Source: Magnetospirillum sp. XM-1 (GTDB lineage: Bacteria; Pseudomonadota; Alphaproteobacteria; Rhodospirillales; Magnetospirillaceae). From it: 64,000 nucleotides of DNA. Below are positions 9,185-30,640 of this stretch, in pieces. Within the stretch, counting starts at the first letter, position 1. Every line of letters starts with the position of its first letter. The notes below the pieces were generated by a model that saw nothing but the letters and a program-made list of their open reading frames with translations, did not search any database and was not told where the DNA came from. The position numbers were made by a program, and so were the translations under genes. Where the stretch lies: the NCBI RefSeq assembly GCF_001511835.1, contig NZ_LN997848.1, positions 4,182,001-4,246,000 on the forward strand, read 5' to 3'.

Positions 9185-12100
9185 ATGGGCGCGGGCGGTT
9201 CCCCGCGATGGTTCCTGCGGACCTTTCGGGGCGGGCCGGCTCATGGTACACAGGTATTCAGACCCATTGGAAAGGTTTGGCCCACCTTGGCGGATTCGAG
9301 CCCGATCAGTGCCGGAGCAAGCGCGCCCCGCAGCCTGTCCGAGTGGGAACGGATCACCCGCGAGCTGTTGGAGGAGGGCCAGAACTTCCTGGCCCACGAC
9401 ACGGCGCGGGAAGGCCTGAGGCAGTATCCCGACAGTTTCAAGCTGGCCATCTTCGGCGCGGTGGCACTGTCGCAGACCGGCGCGGTGGACGAGGCGCGCA
9501 AGCTGCTGCAGCCGGTGCTCGACGTCATCCTGATCGACGAGGGCCCCTTCCATCGCCTGCACAACTCCTTGCGCCGCGCCGTCGAGGGGCTGGACGAAGC
9601 CGACAGCCAGGACACCCTGGCCTCCATGGCCGAACTGGCCGAGGCGCTGGAACTGGTGCGCGGCAAGAAGCTGGTGGCCAGCGCCGACGCCGAGACCTAC
9701 ACCGCGCTGGCCGGCGTGTTCCGCGAGGCCTGGCTGGCCTCGGGATCCAGGGGCGATCTCGAGCATTGCCGCGAATTGTTCCTGCGCGCCTTCCACATCA
9801 GCGGCGCGCCCAGGGACGGCATCGACGCGGCGGTGACCTCGTGGCTGCTGGGCGACCACGACGGGGCGCGGGAACTGGCGCGCCGGGTCCGCGACCGGGT
9901 CAGCCATGCCGAGACCGATCTCTCGCTGTCGCCGGAAGAACGCTACCAGATGCTGGCCACGGTGGCCGAGGCGCATCTGCTGCTGGGCGAGGTGCAGGAC
10001 GCGCTGGCCTCCTTCGCCTGGGCCAGCACGCTGGAAGGCATCCATTACGGCAGCACGGTGGCGGCCTTGAAGCAGCTGGCCCTGCTGCAGGAAGGCGGGC
10101 TTTCCGTCCCGGCGGCCGTCTTCGACATCATCAAGCCGCCCACCGTGGTGGTGTTCACCGGCCACGCCCTGGACCGGCCGGGCGAGGGCCCCCACTTCCC
10201 GCCCGAGCTGGAAAGCGCGGTGCGCGCCGAGATCGCCAAGTCCCTGGACGAACTGGGGGCCCAGGTGGGCTATTCCACCGCGGCTTGCGGCTCGGACCTC
10301 CTGTTCATCGAGGCCATGCTGGAGCGCGGCGCCGAGGTCAACGTGGTGATGCCCTACGCCATCGACGATTTCATCGCCGAGAACGTGCGCTATGGCGGAT
10401 CGCGCTGGGAAATGCGCTTCAGGAACGCGCTGAAGCTGGCCAACACCGTGACCTACGCCACCGAGGAGCGGTTCCTCGGCCATGGCATGCTTTATCGCTT
10501 CGCCAACCAGTGCCTGCACGGCCTGGCGACGCTCAGGGCCAATTTCCTGCGCACCGCTCCTTATCTGCTGGCGGTGTGGGACATGATGCCCGGCTCGCTG
10601 GCCGGCGGCGCCGCCGACTTCATCGACCAGTGGGAGGATATCTCCCAGCTGCGCATCATCGACCTGGACGGTTTGCTGCAACAGCACCCCGAACTGGCCG
10701 GCGACGCCATGCCCATGATGCCGGACCTGGACGGCGAGGCCGACGAGGAGCAGGGCGAGGGCCGGGTCATCCGCTCCATGATGTTCTGCGACATCGCCGG
10801 CTATTCCAAGCTGAAGGAGGAGCACACGCCGGTGTTCCTCGACTTCCTGCGCCTCATTTCCGAGGGCATGGCGGGGCTCGAGCACCAGCCGCTGGCCATC
10901 AACACCTGGGGCGACGCCATCTTCGCGGTGATGGACAAGGCCACCCCCATGGCCGAATACGCCCAGACCCTGCAGGAGATGGTGCTGAAGGCTGACGAGG
11001 AGCTGGCCGACCGCCTGCCCCATCCCCTTTCCCTGCGCATCTCGCTGCATGCCGGCCCGGTGTTCCAGGCCATCGACCCCATCTGCGGCCGCCAGAACTT
11101 CTACGGCAGCCACATCAACCGCGCCGCCCGGCTCGAGCCGGTGACGGTGATCGGTCACGTCTACGCCACCCAGCAATTCGTCGCCGTGCTGACCGCCGAG
11201 CAGAGCGCCATGCGCTCGGAGGCCCAGAACCGGGGCGAGGATTTCGTCGAACGCTTCGCCTGCGAATACGTGGGCGTGCTGTCGCTGGCCAAGGATTTCG
11301 GCAAGCAGACCGTCTACCACATGCGCCGCCGGGTGACGCCCGAGGCGATGGAGCCCGAAGCGGCCGAGCCGCCGCTGCCGCCGCCTGAACCCAACCCCCA
11401 GGCGATGCTGTCCACCGAATTGCTGGCGGTGCTGCGCGACATCCCCGCCGAGGAGGGGGGCACTTCTCCGCCGGAAGAGCCCTTCGTCACGGAGGAAGAG
11501 CCCTTTGTCGCCGAGGAGGAACCCTTCGCGGCCGAGGAAGAGCCCGTCGCCGTCGAGGAGGAGGCTTCGCCGCCGGCCGTGGCCGAGGGCGCCATTTCCG
11601 ACGACGATCTGGCCGCCATCCTGGCCATGGGCGACGTGGAGGAACTGGGGGACGACGAGGAGCCCGCGCCTTGCGCGCCGGCCGATCTGGGCGATCTGGG
11701 CTCGCCCATCCTGTCCGACGACGACATGGCCGCCCTGCTGGGCGAGGCCGCGCCGCCGCTGTCGGAAGGCACCCTGTCCGACGACGATCTGGCCGCCATC
11801 CTGGCCATGGGCGAGGTGGAGGAGCTGGGAGACGACGAGGAGCCCGCGCCCTGCGCGCCGGCCGATCTCGGCGATCTGGCCTCCACCATCCTGTCCGACG
11901 ACGACATGGCCGCCCTGCTCGACGAAGCCCTGCCGCTCGACGAGACGGGGGAGCCCGAGCCGCCGCTTTCGGAAGGCACGATCCCCGACGACGATCTGGC
12001 CGCCATCCTGGCCATGGGCGAGGTCGAGGAACTGGCGGACGACGAGGAGCCGGCTCCTTGCGCCCCGGCCGATCTGGGCGATCTGGGCTCGACCATCCTG

Positions 12101-12910
12101 TCGGAAGAAGACATGGTCGCCCTGCTGGAGGAAGCCGCGCCGCTGGACGATGCCGCGGAGCCCGAAACGTCCGGGGGAACCCTCTCCGACGAGGATCTGG
12201 CCGCCATTCTCGCCATGGGCGACGTGGAGGAGGAGGAGAAGGGCGAGATGCCGGCGGAGGCCGCCGATCTCACCTCCACCACCCTGTCCGACGCCGATCT
12301 GTCCACCTTGTTGGCCGAGGCCACCGAGGAAGAGGAATTCAACGCCCAATTGGCCGCCGACGAGAGCGTGCCGAAGCCCGATTTCTCCTTCCGCACCGCC
12401 ATGAGCGACGACGAAATCGCCGCCCTGCTGGAGGAAAGTGAGGACGAGGAGGCCATTCCCGCCGGCGACCTGCCCGAAATAGGCTCGTCGACCGGCTTTT
12501 CCGACGCCGATCTGGCCGCCCTGTCACAGCAGGCGGAGCCCTGCGCCCCCGACGGTCCGCCGCATTCGCCGTTCGATCTGGGGGGCGCCATGAGCGACGA
12601 TGAAATCGCCGCCCTGCTGGAGGAAGGCGAGCGCGGCGAGGACTTCGCCCCCGCCGGGGATCTGCCGGAGATCGGCTCCGCCACCGGCTTTTCCGATGAC
12701 GACATGCAGGCCCTGCTGGCCGAGGCCGGCGAGGCGCCCGCCGAATCTTCCGACGACGACCTGGCCGAGGTGGCCGCCGCCGTCGAGGCGGCCATGGCCA
12801 AGATGGAAGCCGAGGAGGACGGCATCGCCCTGGCGCCGCCCCGGCCCAAGCCGGTCGTGCGGCCCTTCACCGGCAAGGTGGAGATTTCCCTGGCGCCGCC
12901 CAGGAAGTAG
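9185..12910 (+). CDS. TRAFs/TPR-like, SLOG-like and class III cyclase protein with repetitive acidic tail
   Basis: About 1,240 residues. The N-terminal helical part (to about 310) resembles the TPR-like TRAFs-binding region. At about 320-400, VVVFTGHALDRPGEGPHFPP and STAACGSDLLFIEAMLERGA look like a Rossmann SLOG-type nucleotide-binding domain. At about 525-700 a class III nucleotide cyclase domain has both metal Asp residues (MFCDIAGYSKL, NTWGDAIFAVMD) and the C-terminal INRAARLEP block. The Lys normally before the second Asp block is Asn, so substrate is uncertain. Residues from about 800 are an acidic repeat array (separate entry). The protein looks cytoplasmic. The first 33 residues look non-native; a TTG at 9287 with GGAAAGG upstream is a good alternative start. 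Confidence 0.85.
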   Translation: MGAGGSPRWFLRTFRGGPAHGTQVFRPIGKVWPTLADSSPISAGASAPRSLSEWERITRELLEEGQNFLAHDTAREGLRQYPDSFKLAIFGAVALSQTGAVDEARKLLQPVLDVILIDEGPFHRLHNSLRRAVEGLDEADSQDTLASMAELAEALELVRGKKLVASADAETYTALAGVFREAWLASGSRGDLEHCRELFLRAFHISGAPRDGIDAAVTSWLLGDHDGARELARRVRDRVSHAETDLSLSPEERYQMLATVAEAHLLLGEVQDALASFAWASTLEGIHYGSTVAALKQLALLQEGGLSVPAAVFDIIKPPTVVVFTGHALDRPGEGPHFPPELESAVRAEIAKSLDELGAQVGYSTAACGSDLLFIEAMLERGAEVNVVMPYAIDDFIAENVRYGGSRWEMRFRNALKLANTVTYATEERFLGHGMLYRFANQCLHGLATLRANFLRTAPYLLAVWDMMPGSLAGGAADFIDQWEDISQLRIIDLDGLLQQHPELAGDAMPMMPDLDGEADEEQGEGRVIRSMMFCDIAGYSKLKEEHTPVFLDFLRLISEGMAGLEHQPLAINTWGDAIFAVMDKATPMAEYAQTLQEMVLKADEELADRLPHPLSLRISLHAGPVFQAIDPICGRQNFYGSHINRAARLEPVTVIGHVYATQQFVAVLTAEQSAMRSEAQNRGEDFVERFACEYVGVLSLAKDFGKQTVYHMRRRVTPEAMEPEAAEPPLPPPEPNPQAMLSTELLAVLRDIPAEEGGTSPPEEPFVTEEEPFVAEEEPFAAEEEPVAVEEEASPPAVAEGAISDDDLAAILAMGDVEELGDDEEPAPCAPADLGDLGSPILSDDDMAALLGEAAPPLSEGTLSDDDLAAILAMGEVEELGDDEEPAPCAPADLGDLASTILSDDDMAALLDEALPLDETGEPEPPLSEGTIPDDDLAAILAMGEVEELADDEEPAPCAPADLGDLGSTILSEEDMVALLEEAAPLDDAAEPETSGGTLSDEDLAAILAMGDVEEEEKGEMPAEAADLTSTTLSDADLSTLLAEATEEEEFNAQLAADESVPKPDFSFRTAMSDDEIAALLEESEDEEAIPAGDLPEIGSSTGFSDADLAALSQQAEPCAPDGPPHSPFDLGGAMSDDEIAALLEEGERGEDFAPAGDLPEIGSATGFSDDDMQALLAEAGEAPAESSDDDLAEVAAAVEAAMAKMEAEEDGIALAPPRPKPVVRPFTGKVEISLAPPRK
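11590..12785 (+). repeat. tandem FliM-N-like motif array in the cyclase tail
   Basis: About 13 copies of a short motif of pattern (I/T/A)-(L/M/F)-S-D-(D/E/A)-(D/E)-(L/M/I)-A-A-(I/L)-L, near 11593, 11709, 11770, 11887, 11980, 12097, 12178, 12283, 12400, 12493, 12589, 12688 and 12745. The first six to eight alternate as DDDLAAILAMG and DDDMAALL. They form a larger unit of about 180-200 bp that includes VEELGDDEEPAPCAPADLGDL and is nearly identical at DNA level between 11590 and 12130, so recent tandem duplication is likely. Confidence 0.85.
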
Positions 12911-28332: not shown

Positions 28333-30306
28333 TTACTGCCGGACCCGGACCAGGAAGCGGTCGGTCTCGGCGGTCAGGGTTTCCACCACCTGGCTCAGGC
28401 TCTTGGCGCTCCAGATCACGCGGACCGTGCCGGCGCAGGTCTGGGCGGACGAGCGCGACAGGTCACCCACATTGGCCGAGACGGACTGGGCCTGACGGGC
28501 CACCTCGTCGATGTCGTCGGCGATCTCGCGGGTGGCCGCCTCCTGCTCCTGCACCGCGCCGGCGATGGCCGCCGAAACCTCGTCCAGCGACTTGATGATG
28601 TCGACCACCGCAGTGATGGCGTCGGCCATGCTGTGCGACGAGGCCTGGATCTCGCCCACCTGGCGGGCGATCTCGTCGGTGGCCCGGGCGGTCTGGTTGG
28701 CCAGGGTCTTCACCTCGCCCGCCACCACGGCGAAGCCCTTGCCCGCCTCGCCGGCACGCGCCGCCTCGATGGTGGCGTTCAGGGCCAGCAGGTTGGTCTG
28801 GGACGCGATGTCGTTGATCAGCCTGACCACCTCGCCGATGGACTGCACCGAATTAGCCAGCCCGCCCATCTGCCGGGCGGTGGCGTTGACGTCCTCCACC
28901 GTGCGCCGCGCGATGTCGGTGGAATTGGCCACCTGCCGGGCGATCTCGTTGATGGCCAGGGCCAGCTGGCGGGTCGCCTCGGCGGCGCCGGTGGCGCGTT
29001 CGGTGGTGATGCGCACCGCGTCGCCCACGTCGAGCGAGCGCGAGCCGCTGCGTTCCGAACGCCCGGCCATGACCTGGGCGGTCTGGCGGATGCCGCCGGT
29101 GGCGCGCTCGACCTCGGCGACCTTGCTCTTGACGCTGGCCTCGAAATCGTCGGCCATGGCCATCAGGGCGGCGGCCTTCTCCTCCTCGGAACGGATGCGT
29201 TCGGCCTCGCGCGCCTCGCGCAGCCGGTCGGCCTCGACCATGACGTCGTGGAAGACCTGGACGGCACGCGCCATCTCGCCCACCTCGTCGTGACGGTCCT
29301 GGGCGGGAATGGCGGCGGCCTTGTCGCCGTCGGCCAGGGCCTTCATCACCTCGGCCATGCGCTTGATCGGCCGCTCGATGGAAGCCCCCAGCCACAGCCC
29401 CAGGGTCAGGATCAGGGCGAAGCCGCCGCCCATCACCGCCTGCAGGGTCAGCTGGGCGGCTCGCCCGACCTCGACGGCCCTGGTCTCGGCGGCGACGGCG
29501 GCGTTCCGGGCGTCGGCCACCATGGAGGCCAGCACGCCCTCGAGCCAATCCTTGTGGACGGCGATCATCTCGCGTTCCAGGCCGGCGACGGCGTCGATGC
29601 CATCGGCGGCGGCGCTAAAATCGCGGTGATAGCGGTCCAGGCTTTCCCCCAGCTGCGCCCGCTCCGCGGCGCCGAGACCGCCCGTCGGCAAGGCCTTGGC
29701 GAACGCCGCCACCAGGCCGTCCAGCTCGGCCCGATCCGCCGGCTGGCGACGCAGCAGGAAGTTCTTTTCCGCCCGGCGCATCTGCAGCACCAGGATGGTC
29801 AAATCGGACAGGTCGCGGGCCTTCAGCACCTTTTCCATATCGAGCGCCGAGCCCCTGAGCGCGCCCAGCAGCCCGACCTGATCGGTGAATCCCACCTTGC
29901 GCTGGGTCTCGACCATGGCGGCGAAGGCGCGGCCGTAACGCTCGGCGCCGTCCTTGACCTTGGCGATCAGCTCGCGCCGGGGCGGCCCGTCACCGGGCAG
30001 CACGGCGGCCATACGGTCGAGGGCCTCGCGGGCCTCGGCCACATGGCGGGGCTGCTTGGAGGCCGAATCCTCGTCATGGCGCAGCAGGAAGTTCTTTTCC
30101 TGGCGCCGGGCCTGCAGCAGGGCGATGTCCACCTGATCGGTCTGGGTCATCACCGTCCGGAAGGAATCGGCTTCGCGGCGGGCGGCGTCCTCGCGCTGGC
30201 GGCTGTTCCACAGCAGCAGCGCCGCCGCCAGAAACACCAGACCGGCCATGACCACCAGGGAAGCAACCTGGCGCCGCAGCGCCAATCGAGAGAGAAGGCG
30301 TTCCAT
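28333..30306 (-). CDS. methyl-accepting chemotaxis protein with HBM-like sensor
   Basis: About 657 residues. TM1 is near 12-32. The large periplasmic region contains two RRxEKNFLLR motifs, the mark of helical bimodular (HBM) sensors of McpS type, which bind organic acids. TM2 ([20 protein letters not shown]) is followed by HAMP and a signalling domain with the hairpin core [38 protein letters not shown]. The end ([17 protein letters not shown]) has no CheR-binding pentapeptide. The start is ambiguous between ATGs at 30306, 30309 and 30336; GAGAGG favours the first. Confidence 0.92.
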
Positions 30307-30444
30307 CATGCCTCTCTTGCCGGTTCGCCGGCCCATATCGTAGGTGTTTTCCACTATAGCCCTACAGGGTATCCGCCTCAACCATCGGATATATACTTTT
30401 GTAAAAGCCCCCCTCACCCACCGCCGGACGAAATTTCCTCCGGG

Positions 30445-30463
30445 CTGCGAATTGTCAATGCGG
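30445..30463. repeat. 19-bp direct repeat, copy 1
   Basis: CTGCGAATTGTCAATGCGG, identical to 30664-30682. A CTAG follows 35 bases after its start. It stands before a stretch that ends in a strong hairpin, so it may drive a short transcript. Confidence 0.6.
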
Positions 30464-30483
30464 CCGGGCCCGGGCTTGCCTAG

Positions 30484-30640
30484 CCTGATGAGACCTCCCG
30501 GGCGGAAAACGGCAGAAGGCTTAAGCCCCCATCCACCCTCTCCGCCGCTTCCGTCCCGGATGACCGGCTGACGCCTCGCCCTCCCTTGGCGTCATTATGA
30601 CAAGGCCGCTGAGCGCTCCCCGTCGGCGGCCTTGTTCATT
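30484..30640 (+). ncRNA. candidate small RNA (or short leader ORF)
   Basis: Between copy 1 of the repeat and the hairpin at 30600-30635 is about 150 bp with no normal gene. If copy 1 is a promoter element like copy 2 before ccoG, the product is a short terminated RNA. A 27-codon ORF (30488-30571) lies inside but has no ribosome site. The remaining part of the 30307-30739 gap holds the chemoreceptor promoter side and the ccoG leader. Confidence 0.25.
30600..30640 (+). terminator. intrinsic terminator
   Basis: ACAAGGCCGC and GCGGCCTTGT form a perfect 10-bp stem (30600-30609 with 30626-30635) around a 16-base loop, followed by TCATTTCT. No annotated gene ends just before it on the + strand, which supports a short transcript upstream. 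Confidence 0.6.

Follow-up and report, generated by a model that had tools for sequence, protein, structure and literature searches.

What might a long, acidic and repetitive tail do on a bacterial nucleotide cyclase? The window analysed here, a 64,000-nucleotide stretch of the Magnetospirillum sp. XM-1 genome, contains a gene (9287..12910, + strand) with a TTG start codon at 9287, whose 1207-residue product comprises TPR, TPR-S, SLOG-fold and class III cyclase regions followed by a tail with a motif array. The N-terminal sequence MADS(S/T)PISAG is common to several orthologues. Pfam matches of the protein to TPR-S (PF20308, 30.4 bits, cut-off 27.6) and Guanylate_cyc (45.7 bits) lay above their cut-offs; nothing in NCBIfam did so, and PADLOC gave no match at E ≤ 1. 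AlphaFold2 predicted the core with pLDDT values of mostly 85-98. A structure comparison using the whole model revealed only cyclase-domain entries among the 50 matches listed, and the middle domain was therefore folded separately; the modelled segment (10091..10735, + strand) adopts a SLOG fold. The cyclase domain (10751..11338, + strand) belongs to the class III catalytic domains by both family and fold, and structure comparison matched it to the fold of CyaB. Its sequence contains FCDIAGY and INRAAR, elements with recognised roles in class III cyclases, and NTWGD stands at a site where these enzymes usually have Lys. The TPR, SLOG and cyclase regions carry net charges of -17, -9 and -14, respectively.

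The tail of about 527 residues has a net charge of -133 and contains 12 copies of the motif [MLIF]-S-[DE]-x-[DE]-[MLI]-x-A-[LMI]-L-x-E, a short capped amphipathic helix, between 11594 and 12724 on the + strand, as judged by pattern, profile and predicted helices with disorder between them. The copies lie at 11594-11629, 11711-11746, 11774-11809, 11891-11926, 11981-12016 (with P for S), 12098-12133, 12182-12217, 12284-12319, 12401-12436, 12497-12532, 12590-12625 and 12689-12724, and LGGAMSDDEIAALLEEGERGE is an example of a 21-residue motif peptide. A divergent 13th helix, DDDLAEVAAAVEAAMAKMEAEE (12752..12817, + strand; AlphaFold2 helix at model residues 1141-1162), has similar counterparts in the array-clade tails that were inspected. 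The earlier note had placed about 13 motifs at 11590-12785, and the array is indeed there; the count is fair because the divergent element comes after the 12 copies. Tandem Repeats Finder located five copies of a 21-bp repeat encoding EEPFVAE-type heptads upstream of the array (11473..11575, + strand) and, when compared with the motif positions, a 207-bp tandem duplication of 2.4 copies with about two motifs per unit (11740..12231, + strand). Part of the likeness between copies is due to recent duplications. The C-terminal end is of the ISLAPPR type (12863..12907, + strand); the short-tailed relatives finish with WPG[TGSA] instead.

A relaxed pattern found 11 copies, against a mean of 0.18 and a maximum of 3 in 5000 shuffles of the same tail, and a strict pattern found 10, against a mean of 0.007 and a maximum of 1 in as many shuffles. 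The remaining copy, IPDDDLAAILAM, in which P replaces S (11981-12016), scored 21.2 bits with an array profile built from 59 of 158 distinct motif rows; it lies outside those rows, whereas the other 11 copies match the profile partly by construction. Because the regular expression restricts the residues at the cap and at +3, +4, +6, +7 and +8 (+1, +2, +5 and +9 onward are free), we also ran a pattern-free sampler on 280 chunks from 27 tails, including this one, and it recovered the same consensus. In the AlphaFold2 model a helix starts one or two residues past each of the 12 caps and another covers the DDDLAEVAAAVEAAMAKMEAEE element; the helices, whose ten-residue blocks have pLDDT values of about 45-84, alternate with stretches below 50, and two extra tail helices are found upstream of the array (model residues 669-672 and 688-701). 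A Pfam search with three single motif units and with the tail gave nothing above the cut-offs. Calcium binding, to which the name "Calphotin" in one source alludes, was set aside, acidity being its sole pointer.

We then compared the tails of 94 homologues with a VYH[LM]R anchor, taken from the best 120 of 124 found; six of ten genus loci were scanned, the four on the other strand being left out, and the class-wide sample covers relatives beyond the genus at E ≤ 1e-4. Besides a single Magnetospirillum-like clade, one further relative carries the array. In 27 of the 28 tails longer than 200 residues, residue type is conserved at the cap and at the acidic and hydrophobic positions, while the linkers vary in length and sequence; the exception, P0079, repeats a different acidic helix. 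Copy number by pattern ranges from 3 to 12, as expected of an avidity device (P0025 of M. magneticum has 9), and the single motif counted in L176 is probably a chance occurrence. The short-tailed relatives (13 loci) have cores 71-77% identical to this one and tails of 72-112 residues that end in WPG[TGSA] and lack the array. On a core tree of 40 of 57 rows (17 were too short or had no anchor), well-supported branches force at least two changes of the array label: 22 rows with the array group in a single clade, whereas P0071, on another part of the tree, has near-identical SDSDIEALLEES units of its own. For the three closest pairs with the XM-1 gene, motif codons had dN/dS values of 0.14-0.17, compared with 0.29-0.33 for linkers and 0.08-0.11 for the core; motif values were below linker values in only four of six more distant pairs, in which copy-number change blurs the alignments.

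These observations lead us to favour, with modest confidence, a tail that serves as a multivalent docking scaffold for a putative partner. Each motif would be a disordered stretch that folds, on binding a groove of the partner, into an amphipathic helix of about 10 residues with a Ser N-cap, an acidic capping residue at +3, a hydrophobic face at +4, +7 and +8 and a small residue at +6. A dozen such motifs on flexible acidic linkers could allow one TPR-SLOG-cyclase protein to hold many partner copies or, alternatively, to grip one multimeric partner tightly. The tail might thereby concentrate the partner at a nucleotide-signalling enzyme and perhaps affect the cyclase. Counting against this reading are the less consistent dN/dS contrast in the more distant pairs, the recent duplications behind some of the likeness between copies, the chance occurrence of motif-like helices in other proteins and the want of a convincing second motif protein in the genome.

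The resemblance to FliM, from which the earlier note started, is real in part. The FliM N-terminal helix is described as binding the alpha4-beta5-alpha5 face of CheY (PMC11528121), and another article gives the site as the groove of alpha4 and alpha5 (PMC9126983). In hhalign, the array motif aligned with the FliM N-terminal (EIDALL)/CheZ C-terminal motif without gaps and in register (score 20.3): both are short capped amphipathic helices with hydrophobic residues at +4, +7 and +8. The array's likeness to FliM is somewhat greater than that of a generic acidic helix, since the score was reached by none of 150 column shuffles and by 2 of 150 with the hydrophobic columns fixed; the comparison with shuffled acidic helices proposed in the earlier note thus came out in favour of the likeness. 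Two residues that nearly all the FliM/CheZ rows share, however, are absent or rare in the array. Gln at +1 is present in 26 of 28 FliM/CheZ rows (16 FliM and 12 CheZ, hand-picked, with XM-1's own FliM and its three CheZ proteins among them) and in 0 of 210 array copies (0/11 in this protein), and Asp at +5 in 26 of 28 rows and 15 of 210 copies (0/11 here); the array usually has Glu at +10, unlike FliM/CheZ. Among the 19 distinct FliM 13-mers used for a scoring matrix, 17 have the Gln and 18 the Asp. At the loci read, the FliM N-terminus has one motif, against 12 in the array protein.

In the XM-1 genome, the FliM/CheZ profile found FliM and all three CheZ proteins at E ≤ 0.013 (all four are rows of the profile), followed by five weak matches (E 0.14-2.4); none of the array copies came up at E ≤ 10. 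Conversely, the array profile did not find FliM at E ≤ 10, its first pass having let through 82 candidates. Against a background of 52,101 peptides, i.e., all 13-mers from window open reading frames of 200 or more codons, antisense frames included, two of 11 array copies, both AMSDDEIAALLEE, scored above every background peptide with the FliM matrix, and only four background peptides equalled or exceeded the genome's own FliM with the array matrix. The mean FliM-matrix score of the 11 copies was 0.8, versus 44.8 for this FliM, which is a training row. Co-evolution with FliM was tried and was of no use because 28 of the 30 FliM loci given (36 of 40 genomes of the order matched) have identical cores; the other two differ at the same two positions.

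In the reading of the earlier note, phosphorylated CheY or a related receiver would bind each motif much as CheY binds the FliM N-terminus, and the tail would gather or titrate receivers and link the cyclase to chemotaxis. The shared register and helix pattern, the shuffles and the matrix ranks speak for it, as do chemoreceptor matches within 3 kb at 7 of 25 related loci, some of them short-tailed relatives and none array-bearing. There is also a precedent in Pseudomonas aeruginosa Pil-Chp, in which PilG activates the class III adenylate cyclase CyaB (PMC12632253). Against it stand the missing Gln and Asp, the failure of the FliM/CheZ profile to recognise the array, the low mean score of the copies and two surveys of array-bearing loci that found no chemoreceptor match nearby (0/10, one of these with almost no flank, and 0/9). 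We consider this reading, and CheY-type receivers as partners, unlikely; the partner is probably not the CheY receivers bound by FliM and CheZ. A speculative variant, which we regard as rather improbable, is that helices derived from FliM/CheZ, or converged on them, let one SLOG-cyclase bind many receivers of a type that FliM and CheZ do not serve; the tail would then soak up or count receivers and pass on, through a nucleotide messenger, what proportion of them is phosphorylated.

The target could also lie within the protein itself: the motifs might bind its TPR, SLOG or cyclase region, or one another, so that molecules cluster or the enzyme is autoinhibited. Short peptides are common ligands of TPR domains, and a private target would fit the genome searches. 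The tail found only itself in its own genome at E ≤ 10 (34 candidates), and the best further array-profile match in the whole genome (14.7 bits, E 0.24) lay in an ABC-type ATPase reading frame; with no convincing second copy, no other protein hints at a shared target. However, all three of these regions bear a net negative charge, as does the tail, and the AlphaFold2 model, judged by pLDDT, lends such contacts no support, which makes self-association fairly improbable. Nor does a tail that binds nothing in particular seem probable to us, in which repeat slippage would have spread an acidic, helix-prone spacer whose role is that of a charged brush or a tag for solubility. The charge, the clear 207-bp and 21-bp tandem duplications and the different acidic helix repeated in P0079 favour it, but the uncharged Ser cap, Ala +6 and Leu +8 vary about as little as the acids, motif codons are more constrained than linkers in the closest pairs, and a second lineage carries almost the same motif.

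CyaB is not known to us to carry a motif array, and there is, to our knowledge, little description of bacterial signalling enzymes that bear some twelve helical docking motifs in tandem. PilG is CheY-like, and in Pil-Chp a chemosensory response regulator activates the cyclase; the cyclase domain of the array protein shares the CyaB fold, but a receiver link of this cyclase would be hypothetical. Short-tailed TPR-S/SLOG/class III cyclase relatives have the same core without the array, some of them beside chemoreceptor genes. The polar hubs HubP and FimV have long acidic repeat-bearing cytoplasmic regions that serve as scaffolds, and a LysM domain is one of their features; the array protein is alike in its long acidic repeat region, but its core is of the cyclase family, and LysM was absent among its five Pfam matches at E ≤ 1. 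Among the matches listed from open-access PMC text, neither this protein nor any tandem FliM-like array was described. The tail alone had no match at E ≤ 1e-5 in 5.8 billion proteins (7997 candidates of 0.55-1.75 times its length), a search in which full-length orthologues are too long to be candidates and biased composition may mask relatives. The motif profile had eight chance-like matches to solved structures (best E 0.05), with motif-like helices in cytochromes c, in aldo-keto reductases and, at E 0.05, in a glycosyltransferase.

If a partner is found, the natural variants with 3-12 copies would provide a clean system for studying how a bacterial second-messenger enzyme is tuned by multivalency. 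A further product of the comparison is a description of the genus's FliM/CheZ motif, drawn from FliM and the three CheZ proteins. Around the array gene, no chemoreceptor was seen in the six array-clade regions compared; gyrase-B-type and thioesterase-type genes recur in all six.

In the tail of the cyclase protein, a relaxed pattern matches 11 motif copies and a strict pattern 10, against means of 0.18 and 0.007 in shuffled tails. A profile of 59 motif rows recovered a 12th copy in the own genome, in which Pro replaces Ser; its next genome match (14.7 bits, E 0.24) lies within an ABC-type ATPase frame. The array of repeated motifs described in the earlier note is therefore real. The motif cores, located by pattern and profile, occupy positions 11594-12724 (+) of the window, and a divergent helix, assigned from sequence and a helix in the AlphaFold2 model, follows at 12752-12817 (+). 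Part of the array is made up of a 207-bp tandem duplication. Directly before it, five copies of a 21-bp tandem repeat (11473-11575, +) give EEPFVAE-type heptads. In the AlphaFold2 model (1191 residues, 63 sequences), the core was confident, and the tail helices alternated with low-confidence stretches. A helix began 1 or 2 residues past each of the 12 caps, a further helix was found at the divergent element, and two additional helices lay ahead of the array.

The core-end anchor was present in 94 of the 120 listed homologues, 28 of which have tails longer than 200 residues (P0001-P0026, P0071 and P0079). The count of motif copies in these long tails is 209 when full windows are used and 210 in all, with none detected by pattern in P0079. 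A pattern-free sampler applied to 280 chunks of 27 tails (P0079 omitted) yielded [LMIF]-S-[DE]-x-[DE]-[LMI]-A-A-[LIM]-L-x-E. Because the hydrophobic face, Ser cap and small residue are conserved, the motif helix may fold upon a partner surface, and because the copies are separated by disorder and vary in number, the tail would dock multivalently. We infer binding, a partner and an effect on the cyclase, and we lean towards the tail being a multivalent docking device for a putative partner. Self-association of the tail seems quite unlikely, and a non-specific acidic spacer very unlikely. For the own gene's three closest pairs, dN/dS was 0.170, 0.138 and 0.165 for the motifs, 0.291, 0.331 and 0.315 for the linkers, and 0.081, 0.114 and 0.085 for the core. 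The motif value was also below the linker value in both pairs without the own gene (0.414 vs 0.479; 0.186 vs 0.360) and in four of six more distant own-gene pairs, where copy number differs and the alignment is unsure.

The other alternative is that the array copies bind CheY-type receivers, as the earlier note proposed from a likeness to the FliM N-terminus. The FliM N-terminal helix contacts the alpha4-beta5-alpha5 face of CheY (PMC11528121), and an EIDALL motif mediates this binding (PMC9126983). FliM N-terminal motifs were gathered at 59 loci, giving 58 matches and 19 distinct 13-mers, and CheZ C-termini in the own genome and relatives; E. coli K-12 served as the control (FliM SILSQAEIDALLN; CheZ ASQDQVDDLLDSLGF). 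The own-genome FliM motif is VLNQDEIDSLLGF; the C-termini of the three CheZ proteins read NQAEIDALLASFD, ISQDEIDKLFG and VSQADVDRMLGQDAIDKLFG. In A4, an alignment of 28 hand-picked rows from this collection, Gln(+1) and Asp(+5), counted from the cap Ser, each occur in 26 rows. In contrast, the 210 array copies have Gln(+1) in none, Asp(+5) in 15 and both together in none; neither residue occurs among 11 copies of the own protein. Searched against the own genome, the A4 profile found FliM (33 bits) and the CheZs (27, 24.3 and 19.2 bits), all four also being A4 rows, then five weak matches, and no array copy at E<=10. FliM was absent at E<=10 from the array profile search of this genome, among only 82 candidates passing the first look.

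The array and FliM/CheZ profiles nevertheless align in register with a profile-profile score of 20.3, reached by 0 of 150 column shuffles and by 2 of 150 with four hydrophobic columns fixed. On a FliM matrix, the own copies scored -15.0 to 15.4 (mean 0.8), compared with a 99th percentile of -0.1 for shuffled copies and 44.8 for the own FliM, a training row. Both AMSDDEIAALLEE copies outscored all 52,101 background peptides; on the array matrix, 4 of these 52,101 equalled or beat the own FliM. The likeness is greater than a shuffled acidic helix gives, but, judged by sequence, the array copies are not FliM/CheZ sites of this genus's make. The proposed likeness thus holds above shuffled helices but not in the Gln(+1) and Asp(+5) positions or in the A4 search, and CheY-type binding appears unlikely. 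In one of the three CheZ proteins (L130, G000:C1:326200-328300), the C-terminus consists of two CheY-binding-type motifs in tandem, VSQADVDRML followed by GQDAIDKLFG, and the same or similar pairs end CheZ in relatives (loci L133, L135, L138 and L139); by its motif make-up, this pair is a genuine, if small, tandem array of FliM/CheZ motifs.

In Pseudomonas aeruginosa, PilG activates the adenylate cyclase CyaB, a precedent for a chemosensory response regulator controlling a cyclase (PMC12632253). In bacterial conflict systems, SLOG and cNMP-cyclase domains are described among the components for nucleotide signalling (PMC7159879), the cyclase domain likewise in PMC8195603. The literature matches listed contained no account of tandem FliM-like or CheY-binding arrays or of this protein, and only general or unrelated papers on the TPR-S/SLOG/cyclase architecture.

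Of 199 genomes from the order, 18 matched the core at E<=1e-40, and these include 10 of the 12 listed for the genus, own genome counted; each of six genus loci scanned, of the ten with the core, has 4-11 copies. At E<=1e-4, the motif profile matched one of 289 class-sample genomes, the own genome, the sample listing no other genus member. Among 25 loci on titled genome contigs, 10 have 4-12 copies, 13 are short-tailed (0 or 1 pattern match) and 2 were unreadable. On a core tree (40 rows used of 57 offered), array-bearing rows form one clade of 22, plus P0071 elsewhere, and well-supported branches force at least two changes of the array label. In P0071, six SDSD units of the tail are nearly identical and two further copies diverge more; the tail may have passed between lineages by transfer. 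P0079 sits in P0071's small clade on a long branch. The repeat in its tail is another acidic helix, FELDDDDLLEQFAEKTAETL, present in four near-identical copies, which suggests that helix arrays evolved repeatedly on this enzyme.

In the array clade, gyrase-B-type and acyl-CoA thioesterase-type genes each flank the locus in all six regions compared, and two of the six also have a flanking decarboxylase-type gene; no chemoreceptor match was found in nine array regions. In another, short-tailed genus of the family, a same-strand chemoreceptor gene lies directly upstream of the cyclase gene in four of six genomes; in the fifth a different, convergent one adjoins, and in the sixth one lies ~4 kb off. 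Among the 25 titled loci, whose genomes partly overlap with these six, seven have a chemoreceptor match within 3 kb: five of one family, same-strand and just upstream, perhaps one event, and two others. None of the 10 array loci, one with almost no flank, has such a match. Because M. gryphiswaldense has more than 50 chemoreceptor genes (PMC12442639), a chance chemoreceptor neighbour is not rare. These neighbours weakly support a chemosensory link of the cyclase family, not of the array.

At L148, L149, L150 and L152, a short-tailed orthologue lies directly downstream of a related same-strand chemoreceptor gene, with 4HB, HAMP and MCPsignal domains confirmed in three of the four; at L148, a CheB-CheR-histidine kinase gene also adjoins. 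WPG[TGSA] is the C-terminal peptide of all 13 short-tailed orthologues read (L176-L184, L188, L189, L191 and L192) and was not seen at the C-terminal ends of 10 array loci. In the window itself, a chemoreceptor gene (HAMP, MCPsignal) lies at 28336-30591 (-), ~15 kb from the cyclase gene.
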